Assembly (NCBI RefSeq): GCF_003721515.1
Contig: NZ_RJJD01000002.1
Location: 186,001 to 250,000, forward strand
Length of the DNA stretch: 64,000 bases
Source: Rufibacter latericius
GTDB lineage: Bacteria > Bacteroidota > Bacteroidia > Cytophagales > Hymenobacteraceae
Direction of reading: 5' to 3'
Position 1 is the stretch's first letter; every line of letters begins with the position of its first letter. A program made the position numbers and the translations under genes. This document shows positions 32,716 to 43,809 of this stretch, in pieces. Under the pieces are notes generated by a model. It did no database searches. It saw only the letters and a program-made list of their open reading frames with translations, and was not told the DNA's origin.

Positions 32716-33591
32716 TTAACTGGTAAACGTATCGGAACCAACCTGATTCAAGGCTTCGTAGTCTTCTTCAGAAAGGGGAATGGAAGCGGCTTTGTAGTTT
32801 TCTTCCAGGTGTTTCACCTTGGAGGTTCCGGGTATGAGCAGGATGTTAGGGGAACGGTGCAGCAGCCAACTCAAGGCTATCTGGTGCGGAGTGGCTTCAT
32901 ATTTCTGGCTAACCTGCTCCAGGGTTTCAATTGCTTTCAGGTTACCACCGCCCAGTGGATACCAGGGGATAAAGGCAATGGCATTGTCTTCGCAGTACAT
33001 GAGTTCGGCTTCCCATTTACGGTTGTCAAAACTGTAGATGTTCTGCACCGAGACCACTTCTACAAACTTCTGGGCTTGCTGAATCTGGTCAATGGTCACC
33101 TCAGATAAACCGATGTGTTTAATCAATCCCTGTTCCTGGGCATCCTGCAGAAACTCCAGGGTCTGTTCAAACGGAATCTCTGGATCTACCCGGTGCAGTT
33201 GGTACAAATCTATTCTATCAAGTTTCAGGCGCTCTAAACTTCCTTGCAGTGCCTCCTTCAGGTGCTCTGGTCTGGCATTGATTGGCCACTGATTAGGACC
33301 GGTGCGCAGTAAACCTCCCTTTGTTCCGATGACCAATCCGGGGGGATAAGGGTACAAGGCTTCGGCAATGAGTTCCTCAGAGATATTGGGCCCATAAGAG
33401 TCGGCGGTGTCAATGAAGTTGATGCCCAGTTCTACCGTTCTCTGAAGCACTCGAATGGCTTCCTCGCGGTCTTTAGGAGGTCCCCAAATGCCTTCGCCGG
33501 TGATGCGCATCGCCCCGAAACCCATTCTGTTTACCTCCAGATCTGCCCCAAGGCTAAAAGTAGGCGTGTATGTTTTTGGTGTTTCTGCCAT
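32716..33591 (-). CDS. aldo/keto reductase
   Basis: 291 residues, with the (beta/alpha)8 AKR pattern: GFGAMRITGEGIWG, Asp and Tyr in NFIDTADSYGPN, Lys in LVIGTKGGLLR, His in DLYQLHRVDPE, and the NADP-binding tail IPGTSKVKHLEENYKAA. An NADPH-dependent carbonyl reductase of unknown substrate. ATG start; the gene stands alone. Confidence 0.92.
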   Translation of the reverse strand: MAETPKTYTPTFSLGADLEVNRMGFGAMRITGEGIWGPPKDREEAIRVLQRTVELGINFIDTADSYGPNISEELIAEALYPYPPGLVIGTKGGLLRTGPNQWPINARPEHLKEALQGSLERLKLDRIDLYQLHRVDPEIPFEQTLEFLQDAQEQGLIKHIGLSEVTIDQIQQAQKFVEVVSVQNIYSFDNRKWEAELMYCEDNAIAFIPWYPLGGGNLKAIETLEQVSQKYEATPHQIALSWLLHRSPNILLIPGTSKVKHLEENYKAASIPLSEEDYEALNQVGSDTFTS

Positions 33592-36136: not shown

Positions 36137-37087
36137 ATGAAAGTAAGAAAAGCTGTCATCACAGCTGCCGCTCGCGGTGAAAGACTATATCCCGTAGCAG
36201 ATACGGTGCAAAAAGCCATGCTTCCCGTGGTAGACATTGACGGACTTGCCAAACCGGTCATTCAGATCATTGCTGAAGAAGCGTTTGCAAGTGGCATTGA
36301 GGAAATCTGTGTGATCTGTGCCCCCGGCGACGGTCCCCGCTACCAGCAGGCTTTTGCCTCATTACGGACAAACCTATTGGAATCCTTCAAAAATACTGAT
36401 TGGGCCAAGGAAGAAGCCGAAAAAGTAGACACCCTGCGCAGCCGCATCCAATTCGTAGAGCAGCAGGAACCTTTAGGGTTTGGCCATGCCGTATACTGTG
36501 CCCGTGAGTTCGTGAAAGAGGAGCCTTTTTTACTTATGCTAGGCGATCATTTGTATGTTTCGGTGCTTCCAAGCAAGCGCTGTACTACGCAGTTGATCAA
36601 TCTGGCGGTGCAGGAAGGTTGTGCCGTTTCTGCGGTGAACCCTACGGTGGAGCACCAAATTCATCGGTACGGAACCCTTACCGGGAAACATGTTCCCAAT
36701 CAGAAAGGAGTGTACCAGATAGACAAAATCATTGAGAAACCCTCTCTTAGTACGGCCGAGTTGGAACTGCAGACTCCTGGGCTACGGGCGGGATATTACC
36801 TCTGTTTCTTTGGCATGCACGTGCTCACGCCCTCTGTTTTCAATATCCTGCAAACCCAACTGGAAAGCGGCAGCCAAAACGTGCAGCTTACCCCGGCTTT
36901 ACAGGAAATAGCCTCTTCTGAAAAATACCTGGCCCTGGAAGTGAAGGGCAACCGCTATGACCTAAGCAAAAAACAAGGGTTACTGCAGGCTCAGATTGCC
37001 TTGGGGTTGGCTGGCCAAGCCCACGATGAAACGCTCACCTCCATGGTGGAACTATTGGCCGAGGCAAACCAACGCAAAACAAACTAA
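36137..37087 (+). CDS. GalU-like sugar-1-phosphate nucleotidyltransferase
   Basis: 316 residues. Nucleotide-binding N-terminus KAVITAAARGERLYPVADTV (the usual GxGTR loop reads AARGERLYP) with PVVDIDGLAKPVIQIIAEEA, and QEPLGFGHAVYCAREFV and LLMLGDHLY typical of UTP-glucose-1-phosphate uridylyltransferases. It would make UDP- or dTDP-sugars from sugar-1-phosphate. It lies 52 bp upstream of a gene encoding a GHMP kinase-UGPase fusion, so both probably serve one nucleotide-sugar pathway. ATG start. Confidence 0.85.
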   Translation: MKVRKAVITAAARGERLYPVADTVQKAMLPVVDIDGLAKPVIQIIAEEAFASGIEEICVICAPGDGPRYQQAFASLRTNLLESFKNTDWAKEEAEKVDTLRSRIQFVEQQEPLGFGHAVYCAREFVKEEPFLLMLGDHLYVSVLPSKRCTTQLINLAVQEGCAVSAVNPTVEHQIHRYGTLTGKHVPNQKGVYQIDKIIEKPSLSTAELELQTPGLRAGYYLCFFGMHVLTPSVFNILQTQLESGSQNVQLTPALQEIASSEKYLALEVKGNRYDLSKKQGLLQAQIALGLAGQAHDETLTSMVELLAEANQRKTN

Positions 37088-37139: not shown

Positions 37140-40100
37140 ATGAACATATTCATACAAACCATTACATCTTCTGATCCCGCAGAACGTAACCGCTCGTTTT
37201 TCCAGATGAGCCGGAACATGTCTTCCAGGGAGTTGTTTCGGGCACTTCGGGAGTTAGATGATTTCCGGAAAACCACCCCTAGTTTATACGACAAAGTACG
37301 CGCAATCCTTTTCCTGTTTGCCGGCTACCGGTTCTTCCTGATGGAATCTGCGGAGACACCTGCAACCGGCAAGATTCCCTATGCAGGTTTTGAGGATTTA
37401 TTAGCTCGCCGGTTTGAGCAGGCTATTACCACGTTTCTGAAGGAAATTGATTCCCATGGAGCCAACGCAGCCCTGTTCAGCGGACTAGCCGAAAGCTACC
37501 ATCATTTATCTTTTCAGATCCTGGCTGATCAGGTTCGGAAGAGTGTGCGCTCCAGCATAGGAAACCAGTGGATGTTCAGGGTAGGGCATCAGGAGGAACA
37601 CCCTATCAAAATCCACCCGCAGTTATTACAGCGTCAGGAAAACTCCCTGTTTTACCCGGTTCTGGAAGAGCAAACCTCTGTGCGCATGGACCTGACCCAC
37701 AGCGGATGGTCTGATATCTTTTTCCTGGGCATGGACTATCCAGAAGGTGCCCGCGTTCTAAACATCTCCATTGACCTGGGGGTTTTTGGGCGGGACAAAG
37801 ACATCCGGCCACCGTTGCAGTCGTATGTGCGGGTGATTCCGGAGCCGGTGCTACGGGTAACTAGCATTGACCTGAATACTTCCAAAGACATCACCGAGCT
37901 GGATGACCTTTTTAATTTCGGGAATGATTACCTGAGCTTAATTAAGGCCGGGGTGATTGCCTCGGGCTTGATTCCGCCTTCCTTTGAGGGTACCAATCAG
38001 TCTTTGCCGGAGATACTTGCGCGCATGGTAGCCCCGGGCATGGGAATTGAACTGGTGACCAAGGTAAACGATATTCCCAAAGGTTCCCGTTTTGCTGTTT
38101 CCACCAACCTGTTGGGCTCTATCATCAGTTTGTTGATGCGGGCAACAGGCCAGACCAAGAACCTGGTTGGAGGCTTGGAAGAAAGCGAAAGGAGATTAGT
38201 TGCTTCCCGGGCTATCTTAGGCGAATGGATTGGCGGTTCCGGCGGCGGTTGGCAAGACTCGGGCGGAGTTTGGCCGGGTATCAAAGCCATCCAGGGAACG
38301 TTTGCCCAGGAGGGTGATCCGGAATCTGGCATCAGCCGTGGTACTTTGTTGCCGAGGCACCGGGTTCTTCAGGGAGAGGAAATTCACCCCGAAATGGCTC
38401 ATAAGCTCATGAACTCGCTGGTGCTCATGCACGGAGGAATGGCTTCTAATGTAGGCCCAATCCTGGAGATGGTCACCGAAAAATACCTGCTCCGGGGCGA
38501 AAACGAGTGGGAAGCCCGTCAACAAACAAACCAGGTGTTTGACAACATCCTGGAAGCTCTGAAAGAAGGCGACATCCGGAAACTAGCGGCGAATACGGCC
38601 CATAATTTCGAAAAGCCCATCAAAACGATTATTCCCTGGGCATCCACGCACTTCACCGAAGAAATCATTAGAAGGGCGAAAAAGGCGTTTGGAGAAAATT
38701 ACCTGGGGTTCCTGATGCTGGGTGGTATGTCGGGCGGCGGCATGGGTATGTTCGTGAACCCAGATCAGTTCGAGGACTACAAACACCAAGTTCTGGAAAT
38801 TTTGCGGGCTACCAAAGCGGAACTCTCAGATTCGCTTCCATTTGCCATGGAGCCGGTGGTTTACAACTGGAGCATCAACAACAAGGGTTCCTGGTCATAC
38901 TTCCACGAAGGCACCGATGCCATGATGCCGGAGCAGTACTATGCCATTCATGTGTCAGACCTGGTGAAGAAAGATCCGCAGTCTATTTCGTATGTACGTC
39001 GGGCTGAGATTGATTTCTTTACCACCCAATGTGGCCAGGACAACGTGGCGTACCCGCTGTTGCGCACCATCGTGAGTAACCTGTTCAAAGTATCTGATCC
39101 TTCCTCGCAGGGTAGCCGAAGCAGCGAAAACGAAAAGGCTGACCGCATCAAAAAAGAAAACGGCTTTGACTTTATTCAGCACGAAGAAATAAGAGAGCAG
39201 TTACAGAAAGGCTACATTGGCTTGTCACGGAACCGCTTGCCCAATGAAACAACCATTGAAGACGTGCATCCTACTGATATTGTCACGCTGGAAAGTGTTT
39301 CCAGTGCCCGCCAAACCGGAGAAGCTGCCTTGAAAGAAGGGAAAGTAGGGGTGATGAGCCTGGCTGCCGGGGTGGGTAGCCGCTGGACGAAAGGTGCGGG
39401 GGTTATCAAGGCTTTGAATCCATTTGTGGAGGTGGAAGGGCTGCACCGCAGTTTCTTGGAAATACATTTGGCTAAATCAAAGGCAGCAGCCGCCAAATTC
39501 GGTTCCCCGCTGCCGCACATCGTGGCAACCAGTTACCTCACCCATGAGCCCATCCGGAAGAAGTTGGAGCAAACCGGTAAGTTCGGTTATGAGGGACCGG
39601 TGTATTTGTCTACTGGCCGATCCATCGGACAGCGGTATGTGCCCATGGCCCGTGACCTTCGGTTCCTGTGGGAAGAAATGCCGCAGGAAACCCTGGATGA
39701 GAACAAGCAGAAAGTGCGCGAATCTGGTAGAAGGGCCATGATCAACTGGGCCAAGTCAAAGGGCGAAGGCGCTGATTACGTGGACAACATTGCCTCGCAG
39801 CGGTTTTCACCCTTAGGTCACTGGTACGAGGTATCTAACATGCTGCGGAATGGCGTTTTGGCTCAGGTCCTTGACGAAAATCCGCAACTGGAAACCATTA
39901 TGTTGCACAACATTGATACCCTGGGCGCCGACCTTAACCCTGCCGCTTTGGGATATCACCTTGAATCTGGCAACGTGCTTACCTTCGAAGTGGTGCCCCG
40001 TCGCATTGAGGACCGTGGCGGCGGATTAGCCCGCGTGAACGGGAAAGTACGTTTATTGGAAGGATTGGCGCAGCCTCGGGAAGAAGACGAACTGAACCTG

Positions 40101-40472
40101 AGCTACTACAACACCATGACCACCTGGATTCAGATTGATCCGCTTTTGGCTTTGTTTGGGCTAACCCGTAATGATCTGAAAGGAGACGAAGCACTGTTAG
40201 CCAAAGCGGTGAGGAGCGTGGCCCACCGGATGCCAACTTACGTCACCATCAAAGACGTGAAATACCGCTGGGGACACGGCCAGGAAGACATTTACCCCGT
40301 GGCCCAGATCGAAAAACTCTGGAGCGATATGTCGGCTTTGCCAGATGTTAAATGCGGCTACATCGCCGTACCGCGTCACCGTGGCCAGCAGATGAAAGAC
40401 CCTGCACAGTTGGATTCCTGGGTAACCGACGGCAGCAAAGAGCACATCGTTTCCTTAGGTAATTTCAACTAA
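37140..40472 (+). CDS. FKP/fucokinase-like GHMP domain fused to a UDP-sugar pyrophosphorylase
   Basis: 1110 residues. Residues 1-150 are helical with no known domain. Residues about 190-600 read like the kinase half of FKP: RMDLTHSGWSDIFFLGMDYP, PPLQSYVRV, SIDLN, the ATP-loop position PKGSRFAVSTN (about 312-322), GGSGGGWQDSGGVWPGIK (about 363-380) and the third GHMP motif LMLGGMSGGGMGMFV (525-539). The glycine-rich GLGTSS loop of active kinases reads RFAVST, so kinase activity is doubtful. From about residue 733 a eukaryotic-type UGPase/UDPGP domain follows: GVMSLAAGVGSRWTKGAG, HNIDTLGADLNPAALGY and NGKVRLLEG. Domain order is the reverse of FKP (pyrophosphorylase then kinase). Probably cytosolic nucleotide-sugar synthesis; the substrate is unknown. 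Confidence 0.8.
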   Translation: MNIFIQTITSSDPAERNRSFFQMSRNMSSRELFRALRELDDFRKTTPSLYDKVRAILFLFAGYRFFLMESAETPATGKIPYAGFEDLLARRFEQAITTFLKEIDSHGANAALFSGLAESYHHLSFQILADQVRKSVRSSIGNQWMFRVGHQEEHPIKIHPQLLQRQENSLFYPVLEEQTSVRMDLTHSGWSDIFFLGMDYPEGARVLNISIDLGVFGRDKDIRPPLQSYVRVIPEPVLRVTSIDLNTSKDITELDDLFNFGNDYLSLIKAGVIASGLIPPSFEGTNQSLPEILARMVAPGMGIELVTKVNDIPKGSRFAVSTNLLGSIISLLMRATGQTKNLVGGLEESERRLVASRAILGEWIGGSGGGWQDSGGVWPGIKAIQGTFAQEGDPESGISRGTLLPRHRVLQGEEIHPEMAHKLMNSLVLMHGGMASNVGPILEMVTEKYLLRGENEWEARQQTNQVFDNILEALKEGDIRKLAANTAHNFEKPIKTIIPWASTHFTEEIIRRAKKAFGENYLGFLMLGGMSGGGMGMFVNPDQFEDYKHQVLEILRATKAELSDSLPFAMEPVVYNWSINNKGSWSYFHEGTDAMMPEQYYAIHVSDLVKKDPQSISYVRRAEIDFFTTQCGQDNVAYPLLRTIVSNLFKVSDPSSQGSRSSENEKADRIKKENGFDFIQHEEIREQLQKGYIGLSRNRLPNETTIEDVHPTDIVTLESVSSARQTGEAALKEGKVGVMSLAAGVGSRWTKGAGVIKALNPFVEVEGLHRSFLEIHLAKSKAAAAKFGSPLPHIVATSYLTHEPIRKKLEQTGKFGYEGPVYLSTGRSIGQRYVPMARDLRFLWEEMPQETLDENKQKVRESGRRAMINWAKSKGEGADYVDNIASQRFSPLGHWYEVSNMLRNGVLAQVLDENPQLETIMLHNIDTLGADLNPAALGYHLESGNVLTFEVVPRRIEDRGGGLARVNGKVRLLEGLAQPREEDELNLSYYNTMTTWIQIDPLLALFGLTRNDLKGDEALLAKAVRSVAHRMPTYVTIKDVKYRWGHGQEDIYPVAQIEKLWSDMSALPDVKCGYIAVPRHRGQQMKDPAQLDSWVTDGSKEHIVSLGNFN

Positions 40473-41738: not shown

Positions 41739-42632
41739 ATGAATTATAAACAATTGGGTACCTCAAACTTATTGGTAAGCGAAATAAGTTTTGGGTGTAT
41801 GTCTTTGGCCGGCGAAGAAAAAGGTAACCTGCACCTGCTGCACCAAGCCCAGGAAAACGGCATCAACTTTTTTGACACCGCCGATTTGTATGAGAAAGGT
41901 AAAAACGAGGAAATTGTAGGGAAGGCGTTCAAAGACCGCAGAAACCAGGTCATTCTGGCCACCAAAGTGGGGAATCAATGGCGACCCGATGGAAGCGGCT
42001 GGGATTGGAACCCTACCAAAGCCTACATTCTGGACGCAGTAGAGCAAAGCCTACGCCGCTTGCAAACCGACTACATTGACCTGTACCAACTGCACGGGGG
42101 CACGATCGATGACCCTATTGATGAGACCATTGAAGCCTTTGAACTTCTGAAACAACAGGGAAAGATCAGGCACTACGGCATCTCGTCCATTAGGCCCAAC
42201 GTGATACGCGAATACGTGAAGCGATCCTCCATGGTCAGTGTGATGATGCAGTACAGCCTTTTGGACTGCCGGCCCGAAGAGCAGATGTTAGATCTACTTC
42301 AGCAGCATCAAATTGGGGTCCTTGCCCGGGGAAGTTTGGCCCAGGGCCTCTTGTTGGGCAAAACCCCTAAGCCTTATCTGGCCCACACCGCTTTAGAGGT
42401 GACCCAAGCCGCCGAGGCGCTGAAAGCGATTGTAGGCGAAGAAAAGATCCAGGAAGGAGCGGTTCAGTATGTTCTGCACCATCCGGCGGTGACCAGTGCT
42501 GTATTGGGCATCAGAACCGGCAAACACCTGGATCAGGCACTTTCTGTTGGGGAGGCACCGGCTATTTCAGATGAAACCATCCGTTCATTGAGGATCCAAA
42601 TCCCGCCAGCCCTTTATGAGCAGCACCGCTGA
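41739..42632 (+). CDS. aldo/keto reductase
   Basis: 297 residues. AKR motifs: SEISFGCMSL, NFFDTADLYEKGKNEE (Asp, Tyr), VILATKVGNQW (Lys), DYIDLYQLHGGTIDD (His) and VLGIRTGKHLDQA in place of the longer NADP tail. NADPH-dependent oxidoreductase of unknown substrate. It is followed after 190 bp by a second, distinct aldo/keto reductase on the same strand. Confidence 0.92.
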   Translation: MNYKQLGTSNLLVSEISFGCMSLAGEEKGNLHLLHQAQENGINFFDTADLYEKGKNEEIVGKAFKDRRNQVILATKVGNQWRPDGSGWDWNPTKAYILDAVEQSLRRLQTDYIDLYQLHGGTIDDPIDETIEAFELLKQQGKIRHYGISSIRPNVIREYVKRSSMVSVMMQYSLLDCRPEEQMLDLLQQHQIGVLARGSLAQGLLLGKTPKPYLAHTALEVTQAAEALKAIVGEEKIQEGAVQYVLHHPAVTSAVLGIRTGKHLDQALSVGEAPAISDETIRSLRIQIPPALYEQHR

Positions 42633-42822: not shown

Positions 42823-43809
42823 ATGAACTACAGACTTCTAGGAAAAACCGGATTCAACGTATCAGAAATATCATTAGGCACCTGGCAGGTAGGGGGCCGC
42901 TGGGGAGAGCCTTTTAATGAGAAAACCGCCGAGACCATCATCCACTCAGCCATTGATGCGGGAGTGAATTTCATTGATACCGCCGATGTGTACAGTGATG
43001 GCCTGAGTGAAGCCGCGGTAGCCAAGGTCGTAAAAAGCCGAAGCGAAGAGGTGTTTGTGGCTACCAAATGCGGCCGGCAAATACAACCCCACATTTCTGA
43101 AGGCTACACTCCCGAAAAGCTGACTAGCTACGTGGAGCAGAGCCTGCGCAACACCAAGCTGGAAACCCTTGATTTGGTGCAATTGCATTGTCCGCCCACC
43201 GAAGTGTACACCAGACCTGAGATCTTCGGGGTATTTGACCGCCTGAAGGAGCAAGGCAAAATCAGGAACCTGGGCGTCAGCGTGGAATTAGTGGACGAAG
43301 CCCTTATGGCTATGCGTTACCCCAACGTAACAACCGTGCAGGTGATCTTTAACATGTTCCGGTTGAAACCCAGCGAGCTATTGTTCACTGCCGCCAGTGA
43401 AAATAACATCGGGTTGATTGTGCGGGTACCTCTTGCCAGCGGGTTGCTTACCGGCAAAATGTCGCATCAAACTACTTTTAATCCCGAAGATCACCGTGCT
43501 TTCAACCGCAACGGAGAGGCTTTTGACAAAGGCGAAACGTTCTCAGGTGTGGACTTTGATTTGGGCTTGGAGGCGGTGGAAGAACTCAAAACCCTTTTCC
43601 CCGGCCAAGAGCTACTGGCTGCCTGGGCACTCCGGTGGGTCTTGATGTTCCCAGAGGTAAGTACCGTTATTCCTGGAGCCTCCCGTCCTGAGCAGGTGTC
43701 CTCGAACTTAGCCGCTGCCGGCCTGCCCGCCTTGAGCCAGGAACAGATGAATGGGGTACGCGCCGTTTATGACAAATACATCCGGCCCACGGTACATCAA
43801 CAATGGTAA
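42823..43809 (+). CDS. aldo/keto reductase
   Basis: 328 residues, longer than its neighbour. Motifs: SEISLGTWQVGGRWGEPF, NFIDTADVYSDGLSE (Asp, Tyr), VFVATKCGRQI (Lys), LDLVQLHCPPTEV (His) and VIPGASRPEQVSSNLAAA (NADP phosphate-binding tail). Shares only family-level similarity with the gene at 41739. ATG start. Substrate unknown. Confidence 0.92.
   Translation: MNYRLLGKTGFNVSEISLGTWQVGGRWGEPFNEKTAETIIHSAIDAGVNFIDTADVYSDGLSEAAVAKVVKSRSEEVFVATKCGRQIQPHISEGYTPEKLTSYVEQSLRNTKLETLDLVQLHCPPTEVYTRPEIFGVFDRLKEQGKIRNLGVSVELVDEALMAMRYPNVTTVQVIFNMFRLKPSELLFTAASENNIGLIVRVPLASGLLTGKMSHQTTFNPEDHRAFNRNGEAFDKGETFSGVDFDLGLEAVEELKTLFPGQELLAAWALRWVLMFPEVSTVIPGASRPEQVSSNLAAAGLPALSQEQMNGVRAVYDKYIRPTVHQQW

Follow-up and report, generated by a model that had tools for sequence, protein, structure and literature searches.

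The locus studied here, in the genome of Rufibacter latericius, raises the question of what a protein that joins a sugar-kinase-like half to a pyrophosphorylase half could do, and why a second nucleotidyltransferase-like gene lies directly in front of it. The window is the whole stretch analysed, 64,000 nucleotides of contig NZ_RJJD01000002.1 (positions 186,001 to 250,000), from a genome of 5.67 Mb. It contains an open reading frame (ORF) of 1110 amino acids (aa) with an ATG start, hereafter the fusion, which begins 52 bp after the end of a GalU-like gene on the same strand, hereafter the partner (Table 1); a simple terminator scan saw no terminator in this gap. The original prediction, made from the sequence, had described a frame joining an FKP-kinase-like half to a UGPase-like half next to a separate GalU-like gene, and both genes proved real, the frame being supported by the ORF, Pfam, NCBIfam, PDB matches and a structural model. 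We lean towards reading the two genes as one system that activates a free sugar, first to its 1-phosphate and then to a UDP-sugar, with the GalU-like protein as a dedicated partner subunit. Judging from sequence and model, the fusion itself is a real, conserved and probably active kinase/UDP-sugar pyrophosphorylase, and on this reading its GalU-like subunit would be obligate and perhaps regulatory.

Concerning the first half of the fusion, the Pfam scan gave no GHMP family at E ≤ 1, and the NCBIfam model of FKP, NF009948, matched residues 178-542 (E 2.4e-18) with 65.2 bits, which is below its cut-off of 721. Sequence comparison with the PDB placed FKP kinase chains at residues 179-387 of the window's protein, and a profile of 70 family sequences reached FKP 9iip at E 1.1e-11. 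The AlphaFold2 model of the whole fusion has a pLDDT of 87.2 and a pTM of 0.86, with segments below a pLDDT of 50 at residues 653-657, 745-754 and 1044-1048. Its top Foldseek matches in the PDB are full-length FKP (9iit) and the FKP kinase part 9iip (TMt 0.81, E 2.3e-19), followed by UDPGP-fold enzymes (UAP, UGPase and, at rank 49, USP) from E 4.6e-15, and the heptokinase WcbL was also found (4usk, TMt 0.83). The structure prediction thus bears out the GHMP fold that had been proposed for this half.

To look at the active site, the fusion was compared with the FKP residues named in the part of PMC11982464 that was consulted, namely R592, W599, D601, T602, E751, Q761 and D762, the loop 712-720 with G717, S719 and S720, and the base contacts D644, M645, P666, I669 and L722. 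The conservation figures that follow come from an alignment of 79 sequences, the window's included, taken from the 80 nearest relatives out of at least 586. Nine of the FKP positions (R592/W599/D601/D644/S719/L722/E751/Q761/D762) carry the same letter in the fusion (R182/W190/D192/D244/S321/L324/E362/Q372/D373), each in 79/79 sequences; hence the fucokinase residues R592, W599, D601, E751, Q761 and D762 are all present, and Thr602 is not retained. Of the 15 mapped positions only Y264, which corresponds to FKP Pro666, varies (Tyr in 76/79, His in the rest), the remaining 14 being invariant. The kept W and Q, which contact L-fucose in FKP, hint at a sugar of similar shape.

The three motifs noted earlier, RFAVST (317-322), WQDSGG (371-376) and GMSGGG (529-534), are all present, and the altered glycine loop, with RFAVST in place of GLGTSS, turned out to be family-wide. 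The GHMP consensus of this loop is PxGxGLGSSA. The fusion family has a PKGSR[FL]AVST-type loop instead, in which S321 corresponds to the metal-binding Ser719 of FKP, T322 to Ser720 and A319 to Gly717, and the only variable position of the altered loop is residue 318 (F in 36 sequences, L in 43). Since the loop is otherwise invariant, its alteration is, on the alignment, a family trait and a conserved rebuild, not decay, in a largely complete FKP-type active site. The glycine-rich loop of GHMP kinases is nevertheless absent, with the metal Ser position retained, and therefore this half is described as a GHMP fold that would work like the FKP kinase and is not filed as FKP.

These observations bear on two other explanations of the kinase half. 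It could be a pseudokinase, the UDPGP half alone being catalytic and the GHMP-fold half sensing a sugar or a nucleotide, much as the original prediction had suggested a non-catalytic sensor. The loop is indeed degenerate by GHMP standards (R317, A319 and V320 in 79/79), and the lack of a Pfam GHMP domain agrees with it. However, some loss of residues would be expected in a retired site, and the FKP general base, the Arg, the Glu, the metal Ser, three sugar contacts and the adenine-contact Asp are kept in every sequence. The sensor proposal is thus unsupported, and we regard a pseudokinase as unlikely. Positions conserved at ≥98% make up 38% and 27% of the two parts of the kinase half and 26-27% of the remaining half (210 query positions are invariant across the alignment), so the conservation of this half is similar to that of the other or higher. 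The second explanation is another phosphate donor, for example pyrophosphate from the fusion's own UDPGP half, which would close a cycle in which sugar and UTP give UDP-sugar and phosphate. The invariant R317 in place of a loop glycine and the joining of the two halves in every member found could be read in this way, but the base-contact positions D244, L245, L267 and L324 are invariant, which would be needless for a donor lacking a base and speaks for ATP; this explanation seems very improbable.

The second half belongs to the UDPGP family. Pfam UDPGP (PF01704) was matched at residues 886-1002 with 38.6 bits, above the gathering cut-off of 22, eukaryotic UGPase chains of the PDB were matched within residues 887-1004 of the window's protein, and the family profile reached UGPase 8c0b at E 4e-14. 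H894, N924, D926, E950, G960, G961, E974 and W996 lie in the UGPase-aligned stretch and are each conserved in 79/79, as are R748, K757, K1038 and K1041, which we assigned to the corresponding loops; the roles of these residues (H894, N924, D926, E950, R748, K757 and the others) are those that we assume for UGPase. A C-terminal half without the UGPase nucleotide-binding site, which would have refuted the original prediction, was thus not what the analysis showed: UDPGP residues are retained in this half, although the modelled nucleotide loop 745-754 is of low confidence. The domain order is the reverse of that of FKP, as had been noted: FKP carries the pyrophosphorylase at the N-terminus and the kinase at the C-terminus (PMC11982464, in the part consulted), and Pfam, NCBIfam and the PDB sequence matches place the kinase-like half of the fusion before the UDPGP half.

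Regarding the preferred reading, of one sugar-activating system, the fusion would work in two steps. The FKP-like half would phosphorylate the anomeric oxygen of the sugar with ATP, with D373 as the base, R182 and E362 in the site and a metal at S321, and the UDPGP-type half would then couple the sugar-1-phosphate to UTP, giving UDP-sugar and pyrophosphate. What the partner could contribute depends on how closely it follows the fusion and on what is left of its own active site.

At least 586 relatives of the fusion were found in a scan of genome contigs. The best 80 show 53.6-93.5% identity, cover nearly the whole query in 78 cases and span 12 phyla by record label, some labels probably belonging to mislabelled bins. 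Among these 80, the closest named ones at this locus belong to Bacteroidota and include Sabulibacter (92%) and four records of Rufibacter (86-94%). Furthermore, two phyla were surveyed, with an even draw of 296 genomes from the window's phylum and 288 genomes of Verrucomicrobiota (the phylum of L076, Akkermansiaceae), scoring up to two fusion candidates (E limit 1e-10) and up to seven partner candidates (E limit 1e-25) per genome. Near-full-length fusions occur in 33 of the 584 genomes: 7/296 in the window's phylum, with at least 1739 bits and an eighth match at 50.8 bits that covers only the FKP-like stretch, and 26/288 in the second phylum, with at least 1589 bits. Among the matches scored in the 584 genomes, none shows the two halves apart at family level; the lesser ones reach at most 76.7 bits within residues 172-516, mostly in FKP-like frames of 870-1100 aa, or fall at residues 890-1006 in three UGPase-like frames of 472 aa. 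A copy of the fusion was also seen on a 243-kb plasmid of Hymenobacter volaticus (NZ_CP095065.1:51180-54456; 77% identity over 97% of the query in three alignment pieces), where the PLSDB table lists no gene.

The partner follows the fusion closely. It lies upstream on the same strand in 78/78 loci with usable upstream sequence, out of 80 examined, the other two contigs beginning at the fusion match or 36 bp before it. The two genes are separated by -4 to 240 bp in 77 loci and by 1197 bp in one (L073). In the surveys, the seven genomes of the window's phylum that have the fusion are the same seven that have the partner (at least 369 bits; next match 163.5), and the 26 of the second phylum are likewise the same 26 (at least 284 bits; next 257), always on the same contig. 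Both the fusion and its pairing with the GalU-like gene, whose spread had been singled out as a point to check, are therefore widespread, and the pairing is tight.

The partner matches the Pfam family NTP_transferase and, by phmmer, YngB (PDB 7o2n, E 4.5e-41), and it falls below the cut-off of the GalU model TIGR01099 (326.8 bits; Table 1). It carries a conserved insert, PGLRxGxYLCFFGMHV. The hallmarks of GalU are a GxGTR loop and a PKxMLP lysine, both visible in YngB. By these positions, 74 partner sequences, the window's included, could be divided into 53 of type I, which keep G14 (53/53), R16 (52/53) and K26 (52/53), and 21 of type II, which have an eight-residue deletion and show K26 in 0/21, G14 in 1/21 and R16 in 10/21. 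Q109, G114, G116, D137, G179, E200, K201 and R273 are kept in 74/74 sequences of both types. By analogy with GalU and RmlA structures, the residues lost in type II would form the grip on the triphosphate, and those kept would serve the base, the sugar phosphate and one metal. The window's partner is of type I, with K26 present and a G-x-R loop, so that the glycine and the lysine of the nucleoside triphosphate (NTP) site are kept in modified form.

Type II partners track a single 22-row clade of the fusion tree (21 of type II and one whose cut-off partner could not be typed); the tree is a quick one without bootstrap, in which this clade has an SH-aLRT of 100. Within it, the mapped residues of the fusion are retained, which indicates that the pair is held together without an intact NTP site in the partner. 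The type II partner, as its sequences suggest, perhaps has a non-catalytic role, maybe in sensing, and the type I partner of the window may still be catalytic. In-frame stops were seen inside the partner match at G539:C13:101595-102428 and at G457:C137:825-1658, beside fusions without a stop, and could reflect either sequencing error or loss.

The earlier statement that two nucleotidyltransferases are co-encoded is thus uncertain: K26 is kept in 52/53 partners of type I, to which the window's belongs, and in none of 21 of type II. If both were active enzymes, the GalU-like protein and the UDPGP half would make UDP-sugars from different sugars beside a shared kinase. The retention of G14, R16 and K26 in type I would fit with this, and GHMP-GalU fusions of about 650 aa with intact NTP loops exist. 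The window's own genome has no other match near the level of GalU (next 52.6 bits), but among 27 genomes examined in the same phylum, 24 are without a GalU that passes the cut-off, so the missing second GalU says little. Moreover, type II partners lack G14 (20/21) and K26 (21/21) and the pairing is still unbroken, so partner catalysis is unlikely to be what holds the pair together there. Two active nucleotidyltransferases therefore seem improbable.

Coming back to a single system with a dedicated subunit, the third and weakest step would be that the GalU-like protein sets the activity of the fusion by binding, in its former active site, the UDP-sugar product or the sugar-1-phosphate. GMPPA, which is itself non-catalytic, binds the sugar nucleotide and regulates its catalytic paralogue GMPPB, offers an analogy (PMC11228364, in the part consulted). 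In that pair the nucleotide sugar is GDP-mannose and the two proteins are paralogues, whereas the partner described here and the catalytic half of the fusion come from different nucleotidyltransferase families. The most specific form of the proposal is tentative and somewhat doubtful: an obligate two-protein UDP-sugar synthase across phyla, in which the fusion carries out both steps with a rebuilt Arg loop, and a GalU-derived pseudoenzyme, without the triphosphate grip in one large clade and with the base and sugar-phosphate pocket kept, acts as product sensor.

Relatives of the partner were also found elsewhere. In the second phylum, the next matches to the partner profile are 37 at 200-257 bits, and 28 of the 37 lie in frames of at least 600 aa. 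Four that were read, proteins of about 650 aa (L110:3749-5692 and L111:3789-5708 and L114:3432-5387, all on the minus strand, and L115:5394-7355 on the plus strand) have an N-terminal GHMP kinase motif of galactokinase/mevalonate-kinase-like type and a C-terminal GalU-like domain with an intact NTP loop, and Pfam found GHMP_kinases_N and NTP_transferase in all three that were scanned. On this evidence they are another kinase-first salvage fusion. At L115:2476-7355, an FKP-type gene (968 aa; Fucose_pyrophosphorylase and GHMP domains) comes first and the gene of the GHMP-GalU fusion no more than about 15 bases later, so that two kinase-pyrophosphorylase fusions are neighbours. A stand-alone relative (L113) sits after a galactokinase-like gene that is below the NCBIfam cut-offs. 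That GalU-like proteins occur together with GHMP sugar kinases in this way is consistent with sugar salvage. A mutual exclusion between the fusion and these frames was considered and is only suggestive: no genome has both (28 genomes, counted by eye from frame length, versus 26; 2.5 expected, P 0.06).

Several points weigh against the proposed system. In the kinase half, six mapped FKP positions differ (Thr602 to I193, Met645 to L245, Pro666 to Y264, Ile669 to L267, Gly717 to A319 and Ser720 to T322), and the loop glycines that three GHMP-type comparators have (GSGLG in L107, L108 and L109) are missing, so ATP binding is not assured. Against the fusion-family profile these comparators score 50.8 bits (L107, FKP-like), 0.2 (L108) and -1.2 (L109), the last two being frames of the window's own genome that we take to be HddA-like and ThrB-like. 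The window's type I partner, with its K26 and G-x-R loop, may still be an active enzyme. Position 275 of the partner, which may be a second metal Asp, is Asp in 48/53 type I sequences and in only 8/21 of type II. The GHMP-GalU fusions do not come out as sister to the partner in the tree. The context names no sugar, as the 80 loci, with flanks of up to 5 kb, show no third conserved gene next to the pair. Finally, the conservation statistics are drawn from only the closest 80 of the relatives.

Other ideas about the function of the pair were dropped. The substrate could not be read from gene context, where the largest neighbour clusters overlay the fusion itself and clusters of true neighbours reach about 6 of 80 loci (25 clusters listed); of the 78 tabulated loci, 3 have the upstream Mut7-C gene. 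Replacement of a missing GalU was considered with 27 genomes of the window's phylum, seven with the fusion and 20 without, and GalU above the cut-off is lacking in 24 of them, with or without the fusion; only 5 of 14 control genomes pass this cut-off. Replacement of FKP is not supported either, as 5 of 26 fusion genomes also carry an FKP-like kinase match, with up to two candidates scored per genome, where 2.1 would be expected from the 288 genomes (P 0.04 for this number or a higher one).

The remaining features of the locus are listed in Table 1. The helical N-terminal domain of the fusion had 279 fold matches in the PDB at E ≤ 10 and none at E ≤ 0.001. In 49 aligned N-terminal stretches, 17 of 18 invariant columns lie inside residues 1-146, the remaining one being R147. 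A role of this domain as an interaction module is possible. Three frames that look by eye like aldo/keto reductases flank the pair, at 32716-33591 (minus strand), 41739-42632 and 42823-43809 (both plus strand). One similar-looking cluster is found in 5 of 80 loci, so these frames seem not to belong to the conserved two-gene unit.

Table 1. Position in the window of the two genes and of their domains and motifs.
Feature	Position	Strand	Basis
Partner gene, GalU-like, 316 aa, first of the two-gene unit, type I	36137-37087	+	PF00483 E 1.4e-18; TIGR01099 158.5 bits
Partner residues 9-30, NTP-gripping loop and PKxMLP-type lysine K26; altered in type I, partly deleted in type II	36161-36226	+	Partner alignment
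Partner motif E200-K201-P202, presumed sugar-phosphate contact (role assumed from GalU/RmlA)	36734-36742	+	E200, K201 kept 74/74
Fusion protein, 1110 aa: helical N-domain, FKP-like half of GHMP fold, helical linker, UDPGP-type half	37140-40472	+	ORF, Pfam, NCBIfam, PDB sequence and profile matches, model, Foldseek
All-helical N-terminal domain, residues 1-146	37140-37577	+	Models; fold search
FKP-like kinase half, GHMP fold, residues 174-600	37659-38939	+	179-387 vs FKP kinase E 8.7e-9; 9iip TMt 0.81
SGWSDI, residues 188-193; W190/D192 = FKP W599/D601, I193 at FKP Thr602	37701-37718	+	W190, D192, I193 79/79
PKGSRFAVST, residues 313-322, altered phosphate loop (FKP PAGSGLGTSS)	38076-38105	+	R317, A319, V320, S321, T322 79/79
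GWQDSGG, residues 370-376; Q372 = FKP Q761, D373 = FKP general base D762	38247-38267	+	Alignment to FKP; both 79/79
GGMSGGG, residues 528-534, counterpart of the third GHMP motif	38721-38741	+	Alignment; FKP-like L107 has GAGGGG
UDPGP-type pyrophosphorylase half, residues 735-1106	39342-40457	+	PF01704 E 7e-10; UGPase profile matches to E 4e-14; fold
LAAGVGSRWTKGAGVIK, residues 741-757, likely nucleotide-binding loop and lysine K757	39360-39410	+	R748, W749, K757 79/79
HNIDTLGADL, residues 923-932, counterpart of UGPase NADNLGA; D926 presumed metal Asp	39906-39935	+	Profile alignment; N924, D926 79/79

Compared with known systems, the fusion shares with FKP of Bacteroides fragilis (NF009948; 9iip, 9iit, 5yys) the kinase fold, the WQD and GW-S/T-D motifs, the nine mapped residues, a similar length and the joining of a kinase to a sugar-nucleotide pyrophosphorylase, and it differs in the reversed order, the UDPGP-type pyrophosphorylase, the altered phosphate loop, the added helical N-domain and the GalU-like gene partner. 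Its C-terminal half has the fold and the aligned active-site residues of eukaryotic-type UGPase, USP and UAP, with only 13-20% identity in the listed fold matches, a kinase-like half attached and its own nucleotide loop, LAAGVGSRWTKGAGVIK. The partner resembles bacterial GalU/YngB (TIGR01099; PDB 7o2n) in overall sequence and differs in its score below the GalU cut-off, its insert and its NTP-gripping motif, altered in type I and largely lost in type II. Plant FKGP is another kinase-pyrophosphorylase salvage fusion. Zebrafish GKUP, a glucuronokinase/putative pyrophosphorylase, also fuses a GHMP-class sugar-1-kinase with a nucleotidyltransferase for sugar salvage, but its nucleotidyltransferase comes first and is of the small bacterial type, its kinase is of glucuronokinase type, and the part of the source consulted mentions no separate partner (PMC3938481). 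The papers drawn on, in part, were PMC11982464, PMC3938481, PMC6329318 and PMC11228364.

In open-licence PMC text, no published description of the fusion or of the gene pair was found, and within the range of these searches the order and the combination of its domains are new; the same text gave no paper on UGPase residues or pseudoenzyme subunits either. Sugar-salvage fusions of a kinase and a pyrophosphorylase are already known (FKP, fish GKUP); this one uses another pyrophosphorylase family in the reverse order, occurs in many phyla and was never seen without the GalU-like partner (33 fusion-bearing genomes of 584; 78 loci). Domain matches alone could mislead into labelling both genes simply as UTP-glucose-1-phosphate uridylyltransferases. 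If active, the fusion could give UDP-sugars from free sugars in one pot. The role of the GalU-like partner is the more interesting question, since the pair is a test case for whether bacteria retain a worn-down nucleotidyltransferase as a regulatory subunit; if the product-sensor proposal is true, bacteria would have their own equivalent of GMPPA/GMPPB, with its two members drawn from different nucleotidyltransferase families.

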